Below are positions 19,226 through 28,503 of a stretch of 64,000 nucleotides of DNA, piece by piece. The DNA is from an uncultured bacterium (GTDB lineage Bacteria > Verrucomicrobiota > Kiritimatiellia > CAIKKV01 > CAIJXV01). A program made the position numbers and the translations under genes. Under the pieces are notes generated by a model, which searched no databases, had not been told where the DNA came from, and saw only the letters and a list, made by a program, of their open reading frames with translations. Numbering within the stretch: the stretch's first letter is position 1; each line of letters begins with the position of its first letter. The stretch is taken from positions 1 to 64,000 of the forward strand of contig CAIJXV010000061.1 of assembly GCA_903824675.1 (NCBI GenBank), read 5' to 3'.

Positions 19226-20641
19226 ATGAAGGTTCTGTTCATCTATCCGGTGCCGCCGTCAAATCTGCAAATTCTGCGCTATCAGCAGGGCATTGGGTCC
19301 TTGGCCGCCGTCCTCAAACAGGCCGGACACTCCGCCGAACTCCTCGTCTTGCAACGATTTGACCCCGAATTGATCGATGCCACGCTCGCTCGCATCCAGC
19401 CGAACCTGGTCGCCCTGTCGCTCACCAGTAACTTTTTCGAGATCGGACGCCAGGTCACCCGCCACGTTGCCGCTCAACATCATCTTCCGGTCATTCTGGG
19501 TGGAATCCACCCCACCCTCTGCCCCGAGGAAACCATCGAAGCCGAGGGCGTCTTTGCCCTTTGCCGCGGTGAAGGCGAATCCCCCCTCCTGGAACTCTGC
19601 GAAGCTCTTCAAGCCGACCGCGATCCCACCGGCATTCCAAATTTGTGGGTGAAATCCGCCGGCAAAATTTACCGTAACGAGATCCGGCCGTTGATCGATC
19701 CCCTGGATCAACTCCCTTATCCCGACCGCGAAATCTTCGATTTCACGAAACTCCTCAAACAATTTCCTGAAGCCGAGTTCATGGGCAGTCGCGGGTGCCC
19801 CTTCCAATGTACCTATTGCGCCAACCACGCGCTCGTCGAACTTTACCGCGGCAAAGGACCCTATGTCCGGTTTCGTTCCATACCCCACCTCATGGGTGAA
19901 ATCGAATCGGTCCTCCAACGCTATCCCGAAATCGGCTTTCTCGGCTTCCATGACGATACCTTCACCCTCAATCCGCGCTGGACCCACGAATTTCTTGACG
20001 CCTATTCGGCCCGTTTCAAAACCCCCTTCTGGTGCAATGCCACCGCAGACTCAATCACTCCCGAACTCGCCGCCCGCCTCAAACAAGCCGGCTGTTATGA
20101 GGTGCGCATGGGTGTCGAAAGCGGAAGCGATACCATCCGGACCGAGATTCTCCGCAAAAAAGTCCCGCGAGAGGCCATCGTTTCCGCCTTCAAAATTCTG
20201 CGCGAGGCCGGAATCACCCGGTATGCCTTCAATATGGTCGGCCTTCCTTTTGAAACCCCGCAAACCATCCGCGAAACGGTGGCACTGAACCAGGAAATCC
20301 AACCCGATCAGGTTTTTTGTTCGGTCTTTTATCCCTACCCCGGCACCCAATCCTGGGAACTGTGCCGATCCAAGGGCTGGATATCCGAAACCACCGTCTC
20401 CAGTTATTTCGCGCACGAATCCGCACTGGACCAGCCCACCATCCGTCGTCGTGAAGTCGTGTTCACCCACGAGATTTTCCGCGACCTCGTCCGTTGGCCG
20501 CGCTGGGACTGGCTGATCCGCGCCCTGCACCATATCCCCGTCACCCGCACCAAATCCGCCTGGAACCTGTTCCGCCGGTTACGCGCCAAAACCCGTGAAA
20601 CCCTCGACCGCTTCGCTGACCAACCCCACCACCCTGAATGA
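19226..20641 (+). CDS. B12-binding-type radical SAM protein
   Basis: The 471-residue protein has an N-terminal cobalamin-binding-like Rossmann domain (about 1-140; VLFIYPVPPSNLQILRYQQG, LVALSLTSNF, VILGGIHPT) and a radical SAM domain (about 180-400) with the cluster motif CPFQCTYC at about 191-198, then FHDDTFTLNP and EVRMGVESGSDTIR. This is the class B methyltransferase/BchE-like architecture that acts on unusual carbon centres. The start has no clear binding site. It overlaps the next gene as ATGA. Its substrate is unknown; the glycosyltransferase partner suggests a cell-surface or glycolipid product. Confidence 0.93.
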   Translation: MKVLFIYPVPPSNLQILRYQQGIGSLAAVLKQAGHSAELLVLQRFDPELIDATLARIQPNLVALSLTSNFFEIGRQVTRHVAAQHHLPVILGGIHPTLCPEETIEAEGVFALCRGEGESPLLELCEALQADRDPTGIPNLWVKSAGKIYRNEIRPLIDPLDQLPYPDREIFDFTKLLKQFPEAEFMGSRGCPFQCTYCANHALVELYRGKGPYVRFRSIPHLMGEIESVLQRYPEIGFLGFHDDTFTLNPRWTHEFLDAYSARFKTPFWCNATADSITPELAARLKQAGCYEVRMGVESGSDTIRTEILRKKVPREAIVSAFKILREAGITRYAFNMVGLPFETPQTIRETVALNQEIQPDQVFCSVFYPYPGTQSWELCRSKGWISETTVSSYFAHESALDQPTIRRREVVFTHEIFRDLVRWPRWDWLIRALHHIPVTRTKSAWNLFRRLRAKTRETLDRFADQPHHPE

Positions 20642-21819
20642 AACGCGCCCAAAAAATCGCCTTTGTCTCGCCCCGCTTCGCCGCTGAAGGAACGGTTGGC
20701 GGCGCTGAAACCCTGCTCCGCCGTTTGGCGGAACGCGCCGCCGCCGATGGCCGCGAAGTCGTCTTCCTGACCACGTGTGCCCGGAATCATTTCACCTGGG
20801 ATAACGACCTGCCCCCGGGCCGCCGCCCCTGCGGATCGCTTGCGGTCGAATATTTTCCGGTCGATGCCCATCGGGATGTCGACGCCTTTCTCCAGGCCCA
20901 AACGGCCATCTCGCGCGGCCGGCCGGTTTCGCCAGAAACGGAGGAAACCTGGATCAACAACAGTGTCAATAGCCAGCCGCTCTGCAATTTTCTCATCCAA
21001 CACGGCGATGAATTCGATGCCCTTATCATGGGCCCTTATCTCTTCGGGCTCGTTTATCACGCGGCGCTCATCCACCCCGAAAAAACATTCCTCGTCCCCT
21101 GCCTGCACGACGAATCCTTTGCCTATTTGGCCCTCATGCGCAACCTGTTCAATACGGTCCGCGGCTGTTTGTTCAATACCCCTCCCGAAGCCGACCTCGC
21201 CCGCCGGCTCTTCGATTATCCCGATTCCAAATGTGCTGTCGTCGGCATGGGACTCGAACCCTTCACCGTGGATCCCCAGGATTTCATTCGCCGCCATCAC
21301 CTGAATGACCCGTATGTTCTGTATAGTGGCCGGCGGGAGGGTGGCAAGGGAACCCCGCTACTCTGCGATTATATCGACACCTTCCGCCGTCGAACCAGCC
21401 GACCGCTTAAACTGGTCTTCACCGGCAGCGGACCCATTGAGGCCCCGCCGGACCTCTACCCCCATATTCTCGATCTCGGATTTGTTTCCGAAGCCGAAAA
21501 ACATGCCGCCATGGCTGGGGCCGCGGTTTTCTGTCACCCCTCGATCAATGAGAGTCTCAGCATCGTTTTACTCGAATCCTGGCTGGCCGGAACCCCGGCC
21601 CTGGTCCATGCCCGGAGTCCGGTCCTGCAATGGCAGTGCCGGCAAAGCGGAGGGGGACTCTGGTTTCGAACGTATCCCGAATTCGAGGAGGAACTCGCCC
21701 TCCTGATCGACCAACCCGAGTTGCGAAAAACGTTGGGGCAGGCCGGGAAAGCCTATGTCCAATCCGCCTACGCCTGGCCAGCCGTGGCACAAAGACTCTT
21801 CGCCGCGCTCGATGCCTGA
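20638..21819 (+). CDS. GT4-type glycosyltransferase
   Basis: The 393-residue protein has a two-Rossmann GT-B layout. The first half opens with FVSPRFAAEGTVGGAETLLR, where the GGAE loop is typical of GT4 donors. The second half (about 220-393) has VLYSGRREGGKGTPLL, LVFTGSGPIEAPP, and INESLSIVLLESWLAGTPAL, matching the donor-binding Glu-rich E-x7-E motif of the family. It would transfer a sugar from a nucleotide donor, probably at the inner face of the membrane. The ATGA overlap with the radical SAM gene marks one operon. Confidence 0.92.
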   Translation: MKRAQKIAFVSPRFAAEGTVGGAETLLRRLAERAAADGREVVFLTTCARNHFTWDNDLPPGRRPCGSLAVEYFPVDAHRDVDAFLQAQTAISRGRPVSPETEETWINNSVNSQPLCNFLIQHGDEFDALIMGPYLFGLVYHAALIHPEKTFLVPCLHDESFAYLALMRNLFNTVRGCLFNTPPEADLARRLFDYPDSKCAVVGMGLEPFTVDPQDFIRRHHLNDPYVLYSGRREGGKGTPLLCDYIDTFRRRTSRPLKLVFTGSGPIEAPPDLYPHILDLGFVSEAEKHAAMAGAAVFCHPSINESLSIVLLESWLAGTPALVHARSPVLQWQCRQSGGGLWFRTYPEFEEELALLIDQPELRKTLGQAGKAYVQSAYAWPAVAQRLFAALDA

Positions 21820-21920: not shown

Positions 21921-22238
21921 ATGAAAAAGAATCCGGATGATTTGCCCCTCGAATTCCTGGAACGGGTTGCTCAAACCCTGAAGGTTCTCTCACATGCCCG
22001 GCGCCTAAAAATCGTCGAAGTTCTCCAAACCCGGGGGCCTCAGCCCGTTCACTCCTTGCAGGAAGCCCTGGGCCTGCCCCAACCCCTGGTGTCCATCCAT
22101 CTCAACCAGATGAAACGGGCCGGGCTTCTGGAATCAGAGCGCCGCCGGAAGGAGATCTGGTACCGCTTGTCCGATCCGAGTACCCTGACCATTTTGGATT
22201 GCATTCGCAAAAAATATAAAGCTCAACAGAAAGGTTGA
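21921..22238 (+). CDS. ArsR-family transcriptional regulator
   Basis: The 105-residue protein has the ArsR winged helix: LKVLSHARRLKIVEVLQTRG, then the recognition part LQEALGLPQPLVSIHLNQMK (about 52-71) and the wing ESERRRKEIWYRLSD. Only one cysteine is present (ILDCIRKK near 93), so it lacks the two-cysteine switch of BigR/SqrR persulfide sensors, although its partner gene handles sulfur. It is four bases upstream of the CoA-disulfide reductase fusion and probably represses both genes through the palindromes over its promoter. Confidence 0.93.
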   Translation: MKKNPDDLPLEFLERVAQTLKVLSHARRLKIVEVLQTRGPQPVHSLQEALGLPQPLVSIHLNQMKRAGLLESERRRKEIWYRLSDPSTLTILDCIRKKYKAQQKG

Positions 22239-22242
22239 AACC

Positions 22243-24723
22243 ATGAAAATCGTCATTGTCGGGGGAGTCGCCGCCGGGGCCTCAACGGCCGCCCGGGCGC
22301 GGCGTTTGAATGAACAGGCGGAAATTATCCTCCTTGAAAAGGGAAAGCATGTCTCGTTTGCCAATTGCGGCCTGCCCTATCATTTGGGCGGGGTGATCCC
22401 CGACCGCGAGGATTTGCTCCTTCAAACCCCACAAAGTCTCAAGGCCTCCCTCAATCTCGATGTTCGGGTCGGACATGAAGTCTTATCCATTGATCCCGTC
22501 CAGCAGTGCATCGAGATCCAGGAAGTGGAGTCGAAACGAGCCTACCGCGAAACCTACGACCAGTTGGTTCTCTGTCCTGGAGCCACCCCCATCCGCCCGG
22601 CTCTCCCCGGTATTAACCACCCCAAGATTTTCGTTCTCCGCAACATCGAAGACATGGACCAGATCAAAGCCGCGCTGGATGCCGGCGCCAAATCCGCCGT
22701 CGTCATCGGCGGCGGTTATATCGGCGTGGAAATGGCGGAAAATCTCCGGATGCGCAAGCTGGAGGTCGATCTCGTTGAAATGCTCGACCAGGTCATGCCC
22801 CCGCTCGACCGTGAAATGGCGCGGGACTTGGAAAACCATATGCGCTGGCATGGCGTCCGGCTCCACCTTGGAACGGCCGCTGCCGCCTTTCGCGATGAAA
22901 ACGGCAAGGTGTTGGTTGAACTCCAAAACTCGGAACACTTGAGCGCCGATCTGGTCATTCTCTCGGTGGGCGTCCGCCCGGACACCACTCTGACCAAAAC
23001 CTGTGGACTTCAAATCGGCCCGCGCGGCGGCATTCAGGTCAATGAATTCATGGAAACCTCGCGCCCTCACATTTATGCGGCCGGCGATGCCGTGGAGGTC
23101 ATCGATACCGTCACCGGCCAGCCGGCCATCATCCCCCTGGCGGGCCCGGCCAACCGGCAGGGCCGGATTGTAGCCGATAATCTCATGGGCGTGAAAAGCC
23201 GCTACACGTCCACCCAAGGCACCGCCATCGTCAAGATTTTCGATATGACCGGCGGTGGCACGGGAGCCTCTGAAAAAAGTCTTAAGAAAGCCGGTATTCC
23301 CTTCCGCAAGATTTACATTCATCCCTCCGGGCACGCGGGTTATTATCCGCAGACCGCCCCGATGCATCTCAAACTCCTCTGCACGCCGGACACCGGCAAG
23401 TTGCTGGGCGCACAAATCACCGGATACGATGGGGTGGACAAACGGCTTGATGTCCTGGCCACGGCGTTACGGGCCGGCTTGACGGTGTATGATTTGAAGG
23501 ACCTCGAATTGGCTTATGCGCCGCCCTATGGATCGGCGAAAGATCCGGTCAACATGGCCGGTTTTGTGGCCGAAAACCTTCTCCAGGATCGGATTCGGTT
23601 TTGGTATGCGGAGGACTATCCGGCCCAAACCAACGGCGGTGTCATTTTGGATGTTCGGGGACCGCAGGAATTCCAAACCTGGCACATTCCGGGCGCCTTG
23701 AATATTCCCCTGGGGAAACTGCGCACCCAACTGGACCAGCTACCCAAAGACAAACCCATCTTCGTCTATTGCAAGGTCGGGTTCCGGAGTTACCTGGCCT
23801 ATCGGATTTTGACGCAAAACGGTTTTGAGCGCGTAACCACACTGGCCGGGGGATCCATGACTTTTTGTAGTCATCATTCCCTGCCCGTCTGTTCCGGCAA
23901 ACCCGAACGCCCACTGCTGTCCTATGCCGAGGAACAGATGAGTAAACCGGCCCCCCCTCCCCTGCCCGCCTCAATAGCCGGAAAAGTGATCACCCTGGAC
24001 TGTACCCGGATGCAATGCCCTGGACCGATCAAAAAATTGAGTGAAACCGCGTCGGCTCTCGCTCCCGGAGATGAAATTCTCGTCACCGCCAGCGATCCCG
24101 GATTCGCCGCCGATGGTCCAGCTTGGTGCCGCCAGAATGGATGGGAAGTGGTCGCACTCACCCAGAACAAGGGACAAATCGAGTTGCGGGTTCGAAAATC
24201 CAAAGGCGGGTTATCGGCTCCGGCTTCCGCTTCCACCGGCGAATCGAATCGACCCGCCAAACTATCGCTGATCGTCTTCTCGGGCGATCTGGACAAAGTC
24301 ATGGCTGCCTTTGTCATCGCCAATGGCGCATTGGCCATGGGGCAGGCCGTCACAATATTTTTCACCTTTTGGGGTTTAAATGCCTTACGGAAAGGCAAAA
24401 TCCAACCCGAAGGAAAACCGTTCATGGATTGTCTATTCGGCTGGATGATGCCGAATGGCGCCCGAAAATTAAAACTGTCCAAGATGAACATGATGGGCAT
24501 GGGCACGCTGATGATGAATCACGTCATGCGCCAGAAAAACGTCATCCCCCTGCCGGACTTGATCCAGATGGCGCATTCCGGCGGTGCCCGAATGGTGGCC
24601 TGCACGATGTCCATGGACGTCATGGGCCTGACCCGGGAGGAACTGATCGACGGACTGGAATTCGGCGGGGTAGCGACTTTCCTGGAAGAAGCCCAGCAGT
24701 CGGGTACCGCGCTCTTTATTTAA
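22243..24723 (+). CDS. CoA-disulfide reductase / rhodanese / TusA / DsrE-type fusion
   Basis: The 826-residue protein joins four sulfur domains. Residues 1-445 are an FAD/NAD(P)H disulfide reductase with GGVAAG at 7-12, the CoADR active-site Cys42 in SFANCGLPYH and a second dinucleotide motif IGGGYIGVEMAE near 152. Residues about 448-541 are a rhodanese with catalytic Cys510 (YCKVGFRS). Residues about 583-650 are TusA-like with Cys592 in CPGP. Residues about 674-826 are DsrE2-like (LIVFSGDLDKVMAAFVIA, ...). Such proteins are known in bacteria that handle persulfides; sulfane sulfur would pass between the domains and be reduced with CoA. The small gap to the ArsR gene and AAAGG upstream indicate one operon. 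Confidence 0.94.
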   Translation: MKIVIVGGVAAGASTAARARRLNEQAEIILLEKGKHVSFANCGLPYHLGGVIPDREDLLLQTPQSLKASLNLDVRVGHEVLSIDPVQQCIEIQEVESKRAYRETYDQLVLCPGATPIRPALPGINHPKIFVLRNIEDMDQIKAALDAGAKSAVVIGGGYIGVEMAENLRMRKLEVDLVEMLDQVMPPLDREMARDLENHMRWHGVRLHLGTAAAAFRDENGKVLVELQNSEHLSADLVILSVGVRPDTTLTKTCGLQIGPRGGIQVNEFMETSRPHIYAAGDAVEVIDTVTGQPAIIPLAGPANRQGRIVADNLMGVKSRYTSTQGTAIVKIFDMTGGGTGASEKSLKKAGIPFRKIYIHPSGHAGYYPQTAPMHLKLLCTPDTGKLLGAQITGYDGVDKRLDVLATALRAGLTVYDLKDLELAYAPPYGSAKDPVNMAGFVAENLLQDRIRFWYAEDYPAQTNGGVILDVRGPQEFQTWHIPGALNIPLGKLRTQLDQLPKDKPIFVYCKVGFRSYLAYRILTQNGFERVTTLAGGSMTFCSHHSLPVCSGKPERPLLSYAEEQMSKPAPPPLPASIAGKVITLDCTRMQCPGPIKKLSETASALAPGDEILVTASDPGFAADGPAWCRQNGWEVVALTQNKGQIELRVRKSKGGLSAPASASTGESNRPAKLSLIVFSGDLDKVMAAFVIANGALAMGQAVTIFFTFWGLNALRKGKIQPEGKPFMDCLFGWMMPNGARKLKLSKMNMMGMGTLMMNHVMRQKNVIPLPDLIQMAHSGGARMVACTMSMDVMGLTREELIDGLEFGGVATFLEEAQQSGTALFI

Positions 24724-24995: not shown

Positions 24996-25406
24996 ATGAA
25001 AGTCCAGAAAAACGCCAACCGTCCTGATCCGCAATATCCCACTCGTCGCCAGTTTTTGGAATATAAAACGTTGTTGGGCGTGGCCGCGATTGGGTTGAGT
25101 GCCGTTACCGGACTGAGCGCTCCCGTGCGCACGGGGGGCGTTCCCAAGCTGCCGGGAAGATCGGCAAATCCCAAGGAACAAGTGTCCGAACCCCGGCCCG
25201 TGGAAACAAATTGTCCCCTCGAACAATCTACGGATGTGCGCCTCCGGGGAGATATAGCGGTGGAACCCAAGGTCACAAAATTACCTGGAGCTCCGCCGAT
25301 TGTTCCGCCCCAGGCCACCAATCGTCCGACTGGTCGACTTCCCCGGACTTCCGCCACCAACTCAACCTCGACTCCAATCATTAAGGGCGAGATACGGGGT
25401 AAATAA
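24996..25406 (+). CDS. Tat-signal, proline-rich small protein beside a radical SAM enzyme
   Basis: The 136-residue protein has a twin-arginine signal: TRRQFLE at 16-22, then a hydrophobic stretch LLGVAAIGLSAVTG and an L-S-A cleavage site near 42. The rest is rich in Pro, Arg, Ser and Thr, has one Cys (ETNCPLEQ), and repeats LPG-like motifs: VPKLPGR, VTKLPGA and TGRLPRT. No folded domain is recognised. The ATG at 24996 is chosen because GAGGA lies five bases upstream; a GTG at 24984 is possible. The radical SAM/SPASM gene follows after 36 bases, so the peptide may be its substrate. That is inference; it could also be an unrelated exported protein. Confidence 0.65.
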   Translation: MKVQKNANRPDPQYPTRRQFLEYKTLLGVAAIGLSAVTGLSAPVRTGGVPKLPGRSANPKEQVSEPRPVETNCPLEQSTDVRLRGDIAVEPKVTKLPGAPPIVPPQATNRPTGRLPRTSATNSTSTPIIKGEIRGK

Positions 25407-25442
25407 TAACCCGTCCCAGCCGATAGCCCCCATAAAGTTCCG

Positions 25443-26558
25443 ATGGACTTCACCCTGTGCTTGACCCATGCCTGCAACCTCCGCTGTGACTATTGTTATG
25501 CGGGGGCGAAATCAAACACTCGAATGGCATGGGATGTGGCTCGGAAAGCCATTGACTTCGCCTTCCATCATACCCTTCGGCGCGCCTCCCTGCGGGGCAT
25601 TCCTCCAGAAGCTCAAATCGGGTATTTTGGCGGCGAGCCACTACTCGAATGGCCCCTGCTGACGCGTTCGGCCGAATACGCCCTGGAATCAGCCGCCCGG
25701 GACGGCATCACCCTCAAAAAGACCGTCACGACCAACATGACCCTCCTTGATGAGGAGAAGATGACCTGGTTTCGGGCGCATGATTTCTATCTCGGCCTAT
25801 CCTTGGATGGCAATGCCGCCATGCATGACACTTTGCGACGCTTTCCCGATGGAACCGGTTCGCATGCGGCAGCATCAAAAGCCTTGCGGTTTTTCCGGGG
25901 ATCCCAACCTGCCGGGGAAATCATCCTCGTGGTGGATCCCCGGAATGTCGCGCACCTGACGAAATCAGTCGAATGGTTACTGTCGGAAGACATTCGCAAC
26001 ATTGCCCTCAATCCCAATTTTTATATCGAGTGGCCGGAATCCGCCTTACGCACCTGGCAGACCGCTTCCGAACGCATTGGAGACCTCTATATCGACACCT
26101 ATCGGGCAAGCCAGCCCGTCCGGATCAATGTCATCGACGGCAAGATTCGAACCCGGATCAAGGATGGTTATGCTTCATGTGACAAATGTGGTTTCGGGGA
26201 AAACGAGATTGCCATTGCCGCCAGCGGCAATATCTATCCGTGTGAACGGATCGTCGGCGACGACACCAATGAAGCACTCCGACTGGGAAATATTTTTACG
26301 GGTTTTGATTCCGCCAAGCGTTCGCAGATTGTCGCCTGTCGGGGCAACGTCATCGAAGAGTGCCGGGATTGTCCCGTCAAGGACCGGTGCATGAACTGGT
26401 GCTCTTGCATCAACTATGCCACCACCGGAGCGATCAATCGGGTCGACGGGTTGGTGTGCCATCACGAACGCATGGTCATCGGGGTCGCGGATCGGGTCGG
26501 GGCAACCTTGTTTGCCGAATCAAACCCCGCCTTCCTGGCCCGATTTTACGGGGCATAA
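25443..26558 (+). CDS. Radical SAM/SPASM maturase (anSME-like or peptide-modifying)
   Basis: The 371-residue protein has the radical SAM cluster motif CNLRCDYC at 11-18 and GYFGGEPLLEWPLL for SAM binding. The C-terminal SPASM domain (about 240-350) has GNIYPC and the CX2CX5CX3C pattern in ECRDCPVKDRCMNWC, giving two auxiliary 4Fe-4S clusters. This layout is shared by anaerobic sulfatase-maturating enzymes and by RiPP peptide maturases. The downstream sulfatase is Cys-type and needs maturation, which favours anSME; the upstream Tat-signal proline-rich gene favours a peptide target. Both readings remain open. Confidence 0.9.
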   Translation: MDFTLCLTHACNLRCDYCYAGAKSNTRMAWDVARKAIDFAFHHTLRRASLRGIPPEAQIGYFGGEPLLEWPLLTRSAEYALESAARDGITLKKTVTTNMTLLDEEKMTWFRAHDFYLGLSLDGNAAMHDTLRRFPDGTGSHAAASKALRFFRGSQPAGEIILVVDPRNVAHLTKSVEWLLSEDIRNIALNPNFYIEWPESALRTWQTASERIGDLYIDTYRASQPVRINVIDGKIRTRIKDGYASCDKCGFGENEIAIAASGNIYPCERIVGDDTNEALRLGNIFTGFDSAKRSQIVACRGNVIEECRDCPVKDRCMNWCSCINYATTGAINRVDGLVCHHERMVIGVADRVGATLFAESNPAFLARFYGA

Positions 26559-26928: not shown

Positions 26929-28503
26929 ATGGATAGCTTGATGAAAAACACCGCTCCTCCGAATATCCTTTTCATTACGACCGATCAGCATCATTGGTCA
27001 GCTATGGGATATCGCAACCCGGAAGTCCGGACACCCAACCTTGACCGGCTGGTCCAGCAGGGAACCACTTTTCACCGTGCCTATACCGTCAATCCCACCT
27101 GCACCCCCACCCGCGCCAGTTGGATTACCGGTCTGTACCCCAGCCAGCATGGCGCCTATTCACTGGGCACCAAACTGCCCGAAACCGTCCCGACCTTGGG
27201 CGATGCCCTTCAACAGCATGGCTATCGTACGGCGCTCGTCGGCAAGGCGCATTTTCAACCTCTCAAATCCACTCCCGAATATCCGTCGCTGGAAGCTTAT
27301 CCCATCGTACACGACCTGGATTTCTGGCGGCAGTTCAATGGACCCTTTTATGGGTTCGAGCACGTCGCACTGGCTCGCAACCACACGGATGAATCCCACG
27401 TCGGGCAGCATTACGCCTTGTGGATGCTGGGAAAAGGGTGTACCCATTGGCGCGATTATTTCCTGCCCAATCCCGATTACGTCCGCGACCCCGCCGACTT
27501 GGCACAGGATTCCTCCCGAACCCCCTTACCCAAGGGCGAAGGCTTGTGGAATATACCCGAGGAACTTCACTATAACACCTGGATTGCCGAACGAACCCAG
27601 GCGCTCATGGAACAGTATCACCGGGAGGATAAACCGTTCTTCCTGTGGGCCAGCTTTTTCGACCCCCATCCGGCCTACATGGTCCCGGAGCCCTACGCCA
27701 GTATGTATGATCCGGCCCACGTCACGGTGCCGGAACATGTGCCCGGCGAGTTCGATGACAAGCCACCCTATTTCAAGCGTTCCCAGGAAACTGACCCTGA
27801 TTTCAGCGATTTCGATGAACCCGAGGGACAGTGGGTGTTCGGCTCCGGTTCCCATCTCGTCCCCCACGACATTAAGGCACGCCGGATCGCCACCATGTAT
27901 GGCATGGTCACCATGTTGGACACCTACATTGGGAAAATTCTGGATCGACTCGATGCGCTCGGGTTGACCGAGAACACCCTGGTCTGTTTCACCACCGATC
28001 ACGGCGATTTCTGGGGCCAGCATGGCCTGACCGCCAAGGCCATCCACCATTACGACGACCTGCTGCGCGTCCCCCTGGTCATCCGCCAACCCGGGGTCAT
28101 CCCCGCCGGCCGGGTCTCGAATTCCCTTCAATCGACGGTTGATCTGGCACCTACGTTCCTCGGCATGCTCGGCCTTCCCGTCCCCCGAACCATGACCGGG
28201 ATCGACGAGACCCCGGTCTGGACCGGACGGCAGGAAACCCTGCGGGATCATGTGATCATCGAGAACCATCACCAACCGACCACCCTGAACCTGCGCACCC
28301 TGGTCACCGATCGACACAAGATTACCGTGCACTACAATAAATCTTATGGGGAAATGTACGATCTCGCTAACGATCCCGGGGAATACCGGAACTTGTGGGA
28401 TCTGCCAGAATTCCAGCCTTTGAAACAGGACTTATTGCTCAAATTCATGTATGCCGAAATGGGCCGTGCACCTCGGCCCATGCCCCGGATCACAGGCGCG
28501 TAA
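26929..28503 (+). CDS. Cys-type sulfatase (S1/alkaline phosphatase superfamily)
   Basis: The 524-residue protein has the metal and formylglycine layout of type I sulfatases: NILFITTDQHHWSAMGY near 13-29, the maturation motif CTPTRASWITG near 63-73, GKAHFQP and the late metal site TTDHGDFWGQHGL. The first residue of the CxPxR motif is Cys, which is converted to formylglycine by an FGE or a radical SAM anSME; the latter may be the gene at 25443. The start could be 26929 or 26941. A GTG start at 26839 would add a hydrophobic N-terminus that might be a poor signal peptide, so location is uncertain. The substrate, probably a sulfated sugar, cannot be read. Confidence 0.92.
   Translation: MDSLMKNTAPPNILFITTDQHHWSAMGYRNPEVRTPNLDRLVQQGTTFHRAYTVNPTCTPTRASWITGLYPSQHGAYSLGTKLPETVPTLGDALQQHGYRTALVGKAHFQPLKSTPEYPSLEAYPIVHDLDFWRQFNGPFYGFEHVALARNHTDESHVGQHYALWMLGKGCTHWRDYFLPNPDYVRDPADLAQDSSRTPLPKGEGLWNIPEELHYNTWIAERTQALMEQYHREDKPFFLWASFFDPHPAYMVPEPYASMYDPAHVTVPEHVPGEFDDKPPYFKRSQETDPDFSDFDEPEGQWVFGSGSHLVPHDIKARRIATMYGMVTMLDTYIGKILDRLDALGLTENTLVCFTTDHGDFWGQHGLTAKAIHHYDDLLRVPLVIRQPGVIPAGRVSNSLQSTVDLAPTFLGMLGLPVPRTMTGIDETPVWTGRQETLRDHVIIENHHQPTTLNLRTLVTDRHKITVHYNKSYGEMYDLANDPGEYRNLWDLPEFQPLKQDLLLKFMYAEMGRAPRPMPRITGA

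Follow-up and report, generated by a model that had tools for sequence, protein, structure and literature searches.

A small-protein gene beside a radical SAM/SPASM gene

The locus raises the question of what a radical SAM/SPASM enzyme acts on when its gene lies between one for a small, exported, proline-rich protein and one for a sulfatase. The original prediction, made from the DNA letters, had read the first two genes as a possible peptide-modification (RiPP) pair and had named an anaerobic sulfatase-maturating enzyme (anSME) as the competing explanation. In the window, i.e., the whole 64,000-nucleotide stretch that we analyzed, both genes and the 36-base gap between them were found exactly where they had been placed: the proposed substrate, a protein of 136 aa, is encoded by an ORF with an ATG start at 24996..25406 (+ strand), and the proposed maturase, of 371 aa, at 25443..26558 (+ strand). 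An RBS-like GAGGAAC lies immediately 5' of the small-protein ORF, and its start is backed by homologs beginning MKVxK or MDVKK. A promoter-like site was looked for upstream, and none was found. The neighboring sulfatase gene (26941..28503, + strand; PF00884), which we place outside the system, is of the Cys type as predicted, with a CTPTR motif.

The small protein opens with the sequence MKVQKNANRPDPQYPTRRQFLEYK (24996..25067, + strand), a proposed recognition signal for the enzyme that contains Tyr14-Pro15 and overlaps a Tat-like signal; Y14, P15, and F20 are invariant in eight near homologs, and the predicted TRRQFLE string is present at residues 16-22. A hydrophobic signal segment, LLGVAAIGLSAVTGLSA (25071..25121, + strand), comes after it; relatives are likewise hydrophobic at the corresponding positions, often with a lipobox-like Cys at the end. 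The remainder carries repeat units: KLPGRSANP (25146..25172), RLRGDIAVEP (residues 82-91, 25239..25268), KLPGAPPIVP (25278..25307), the degenerate RLPRT (25335..25349), and the C-terminal IIKGEIR (25377..25397), all on the + strand. RLRGDIAVEP is the best conserved of these, with GDIAVEP, GEIAVEP, GEVAVEP, and GDISVEP versions in near homologs. The three LPG-like strings noted in the original prediction do occur, at residues 49-55, 93-99, and 112-118, though the third lacks the Gly, and its list had missed both RLRGDIAVEP and IIKGEIR.

Farther upstream, a single 826-aa protein (22243-24723) joins a CoA-disulfide-reductase-like flavoprotein to rhodanese, TusA, and DsrE2 domains; it reads as a single-chain sulfur relay and is preceded by a short regulator-like ORF (21921-22238). 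A B12-type radical SAM gene (19226-20641), whose best model is HpnJ-like but far under the cut-off, runs into the start of the next gene, for a glycosyltransferase (20638-21819).

Identity and predicted fold of the enzyme

The enzyme sequence opens straight at the radical SAM domain, with CNLRCDYC at residues 11-18, and it therefore has no N-terminal RRE domain. The full set of SPASM cysteines that had been claimed for it was confirmed (C246, C249, C267, C307, C310, C316, C320, C322, and C339), and those from C249 onward are invariant across 37 relatives of the enzyme. Pfam placed the radical SAM domain (PF04055) above its cut-off and SPASM slightly under (19.4 versus 21.5 bits). The top NCBIfam model was PapB (NF047865), at 218 bits and so short of its cut-off of 340, and PapB was likewise the best NCBIfam match for all 37 enzymes (best E among them, 3.9e-65). 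The AlphaFold model (pLDDT 94.4) has a predicted fold that is a complete radical SAM/SPASM fold, and its structural matches were the sactisynthase CteB (5WGG/5WHY; TM 0.82, the best match), anSMEcpe (TM 0.75-0.78), and ChlB with leader (TM 0.76), the last being, per its PDB title, a radical SAM protein whose structure was solved together with its precursor's leader region.

Linkage of the two genes in other genomes

The enzyme family was gathered with a profile of five enzymes searched over the phylum and class, and it is present in about 50 genomes. One to four small proteins are encoded directly upstream on the same strand in 23 of the 25 tier-1 enzyme loci. When 20 longer regions were scanned for ORFs with Tyr-Pro and a hydrophobic segment, the matches almost only adjoined the enzyme, and among 97 near relatives the homologs of the window's small protein occurred in two genomes, both having the enzyme. 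Partners were missing in places: none was recognizable within several kb of the tier-1 enzymes L032 and L033 (genus g96), even at a minimum length of 24 aa, nor within 1.5 kb of three tier-2 enzymes. The small protein is more than a chance ORF, since it is kept beside the same enzyme in other genomes, and the recurrence of the pair in many Verrucomicrobiota-group bacteria is well supported. The co-occurrence with this enzyme subfamily where no sulfatase is present, which had been suggested as a check, holds in the related loci (97 relatives; 23 loci, 295 kb). Wherever homologs of the small protein were found, they adjoined this radical SAM subfamily and no sulfatase was close by; the proposal of a peptide- or protein-modification unit thus gains support.

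The partners vary in form. The shortest is 43 aa long, in L030 and L034; both of these loci come from closed genomes of genus g96, and these partners are lipoproteins with about 18 residues past the lipobox. In that genus the short-partner genes next to the enzyme can be tandemly duplicated, reaching three or four copies. In L018 (3352-4958), a sigma-factor-like gene and an anti-sigma-like gene ending in LysM directly precede two partner genes.

A fixed-register leader and a repeated core

The small proteins have no Pfam or NCBIfam family, the only match being LysM (PF01476) in the L023 partner (E 5.7e-17). That partner (L023:818-1324) bears LysM by Pfam, and those of L046 and L047 (oriented) do so by sequence likeness. 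These proline-rich, low-complexity proteins diverge rapidly and align poorly, yet dN is below dS in most close pairs; in one such pair, L028/L029, the two are about equal. We compared 37 candidate substrates for shared elements. Tyr-Pro falls at residues 11-18 in 29 of them, with the Tyr usually exactly at 14. Shuffled sequences reach a mean of 0.72 and never more than 5, and 1% of background ORFs (22 of 2173) show the feature; these figures carry some selection and may be somewhat inflated because the 37 were gathered by position and inspection. The other eight have no literal YP.

The N-terminus also resembles an export signal. A lipobox-like Cys follows the hydrophobic segment in 26 of the 37 substrates, and a Tat-like twin Arg is present in six. 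For the window's protein itself, Tat export as originally proposed is a reasonable fit: S/T-R-R-x-F-L and a hydrophobic region make a fair Tat motif, here with TRRQF, and the genome encodes TatC, while the TAT_signal_seq model gave no match to this protein. As a feature of the whole family, however, the proposal lacks support, and we rejected Tat as the defining trait in favor of the conserved, fixed-register Tyr-Pro and the mostly lipobox-like Cys. The twin-arginine motif would then be a local version of the leader, and most members look like lipoproteins.

Downstream of the signal, the core motif h-x-G-x-[IVPA]-x-x-(x)-P occurs 48 times in the 37 substrates, whereas 500 shuffles of those cores gave 6.4 (sd 2.4) and never more than 14. 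Examples are RLRGDIAVEP in the window, RLRGEVAVEP (L018), HIEGDIAIAEP (L045), QVQGLIACPVP (L023), and HLGGAPLPPP (L025); the KLPGRSANP unit fits the same motif, written hxGx[PIVA]..(.)P, with the wider hxG pattern enriched across the 37 homologs. The LPG-like strings are thus part of a genuine repeated element. A sortase-like reading of LPG was considered and rejected, the actual unit being the variable hxGx[IVPA]...P.

A sister clade shares the leader but not the core

A sister enzyme clade (support 95/100) adjoins a distinct and larger partner of about 280-330 aa, located upstream of the enzyme in L039, L041, L043, L044, L052, L058, and L059 and downstream in L036 and L037. Its cores run, for instance, as GDGRGSFGCVAVNPP or GLPYRSSPFGTGMP, and as GDGxGxFGCVAxNPP or GLPYRSSPFGTGMPS, and its predicted structure is of low confidence. 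This partner nonetheless carries the same P-x-YP[ST] leader as the small proteins. That two otherwise unlike partner types have it in a fixed register is, in our view, the strongest case for recognition of the leader by the enzyme.

The same observation weighs on the possibility that the small protein is an ordinary Tat/Sec envelope protein and that the enzyme acts on something else, the linkage being a matter of operon inheritance. Such an arrangement would fit the enzyme loci at which a partner is absent, but it does not readily account for a leader common to both partner types, for a linkage kept in many families across the phylum despite turnover of the other neighbors, or for the frequent tandem duplication of partner genes beside the enzyme. 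We consider it unlikely.

What the cores would allow the proposed maturase to do

The composition of the cores limits the reactions that could be general. Cys is wholly absent from three partners, of which two are the only partner of their enzyme, and 16 of the 37 cores are without it; F, W, and Y are absent from 19 of the 37, the window's included. The L031 partner has no Cys anywhere and a core without F, W, or Y. A Cys thioether and an aromatic cross-link were each rejected as a general rule on these counts, and with cores lacking both Cys and aromatics, neither thioether or aromatic cyclophane formation nor tyrosine excision can be what the enzyme generally does. A different reaction is probable, and the main candidates are cyclopropane formation, epimerization, and an aliphatic C-C link.

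CteB forms Cys thioethers on SCIFF peptides, whereas the partners here have no obligatory Cys, despite the fold resemblance of the enzymes; the several core cysteines of sactipeptides or SCIFF peptides were not found as a feature of this system. Nor is the aromatic core residue of cyclophanes (triceptides) and spliceotides present throughout, as the counts above indicate. A closer parallel is the TVG system (TvgA/TvgB), in which, according to the accessible text of its report, a SPASM enzyme converts Val of TVGG repeats into cyclopropylglycine, working many rounds on a repetitive aliphatic-Gly core without a need for Cys (PMC9062424). The precedent shows that the modification of aliphatic repeats need not involve Cys. 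The TVG repeat is nevertheless a different one, the TVGG core not being found among our partners, and the accessible account describes a TVG cluster with a dioxygenase and transporters and reports no signal-peptide leader (PMC9062424). For a precursor that bears an export signal, the bufferins and other signal-peptide RiPPs offer a precedent, although their MNIO enzymes belong to a different superfamily and bufferins are described in the accessible text as copper chelators (PMC12452194).

PapB, which matures freyrasin, is the closest curated model and shares the radical SAM and SPASM domains and a leader-guided mode of peptide maturation. One could accordingly imagine ranthipeptide chemistry of the PapB type, with the enzyme joining Cys73 in the window's small protein to an acidic residue close by: this single core Cys precedes Glu76 and Asp80 (CPLE or CPLEQSTD), PapB requires Cys plus Asp/Glu but tolerates variable spacing (PMC9413430), and no NCBIfam model fits the 37 enzymes better. 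The scores lie well under the PapB cut-off, however, and the enzyme lacks the N-terminal RRE through which PapB is expected to bind its leader. Across the 37 partners there is no conserved Cys-x3-Asp, nor is a Cys with a nearby Asp/Glu to cross-link generally present, the Cys-free cores and the three Cys-free partners noted above among them. We find this reading improbable.

That the enzyme is instead an anSME for the adjoining sulfatase, the small protein being unrelated, is scarcely credible: the CTPTR motif and an anSMEcpe-like SPASM fold of similar size without an RRE domain (4K36-4K39) would suit it, but the enzyme reaches only 102 bits on the anSME model (TIGR03942; cut-off 349) while another protein of the same genome reaches 385, this true anSME sits on an extremely long branch in a tree with the 37 enzyme relatives, the 295 kb of 23 related loci contain no homolog of the sulfatase, and the small protein and enzyme stay together. 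On the first three of these grounds we reject the alternative raised by the original prediction. The genome carries 11 sulfatases, spread across many contigs.

A proposed precursor and maturase

The features of a radical SAM/SPASM RiPP in the broad sense, i.e., a conserved precursor gene beside the enzyme, a leader, and a repeated core, were all found here, and in the libraries searched the pair matches no described peptide-modification system. No description of the small proteins was found in the literature searched, whose coverage of subscription papers and preprints was limited. With a probability of roughly 0.8, we interpret the two genes as the putative precursor and maturase of a hitherto undescribed RiPP-like system in Verrucomicrobiota-group bacteria, in which a Tyr-Pro leader would be bound and aliphatic repeats modified before export. 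In such a system, the enzyme, lacking an RRE domain, would bind the nascent small protein at its N-terminal leader, centered on Tyr14-Pro15, and would then, while still in the cytoplasm, use a 5'-deoxyadenosyl radical to modify the repeats [RK]-[LIMV]-x-G-x-[IVPA]-x-x-x-P. Modification would precede export, the signal peptide doubling as the leader: the same N-terminus would direct export, through a Tat-like signal in the window's protein and through one of the lipoprotein type in most relatives, and the modified repeats would finish on or in the cell envelope. As only two genes are needed, the proposal can be tested in E. coli.

Peptide maturation by a radical SAM/SPASM enzyme would here involve a leader and a core that are both new, and probably new chemistry as well, and the product is probably a modified peptide of a new kind located at the cell surface. 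More tentatively, and at somewhat less than even odds, the family may amount to widespread envelope-anchored modified (lipo)proteins in which the Tyr-Pro leader is itself the export signal and a new C-H modification falls on L-x-G-x-[IVP] with no need for Cys or an aromatic residue. The products appear to be surface-anchored instead of released, some with LysM and some only about 18 residues long after lipobox processing. If the proposal is right, radical SAM enzymes would gain a large and easily recognized substrate family, in a phylum whose RiPPs are almost undescribed in the literature searched.
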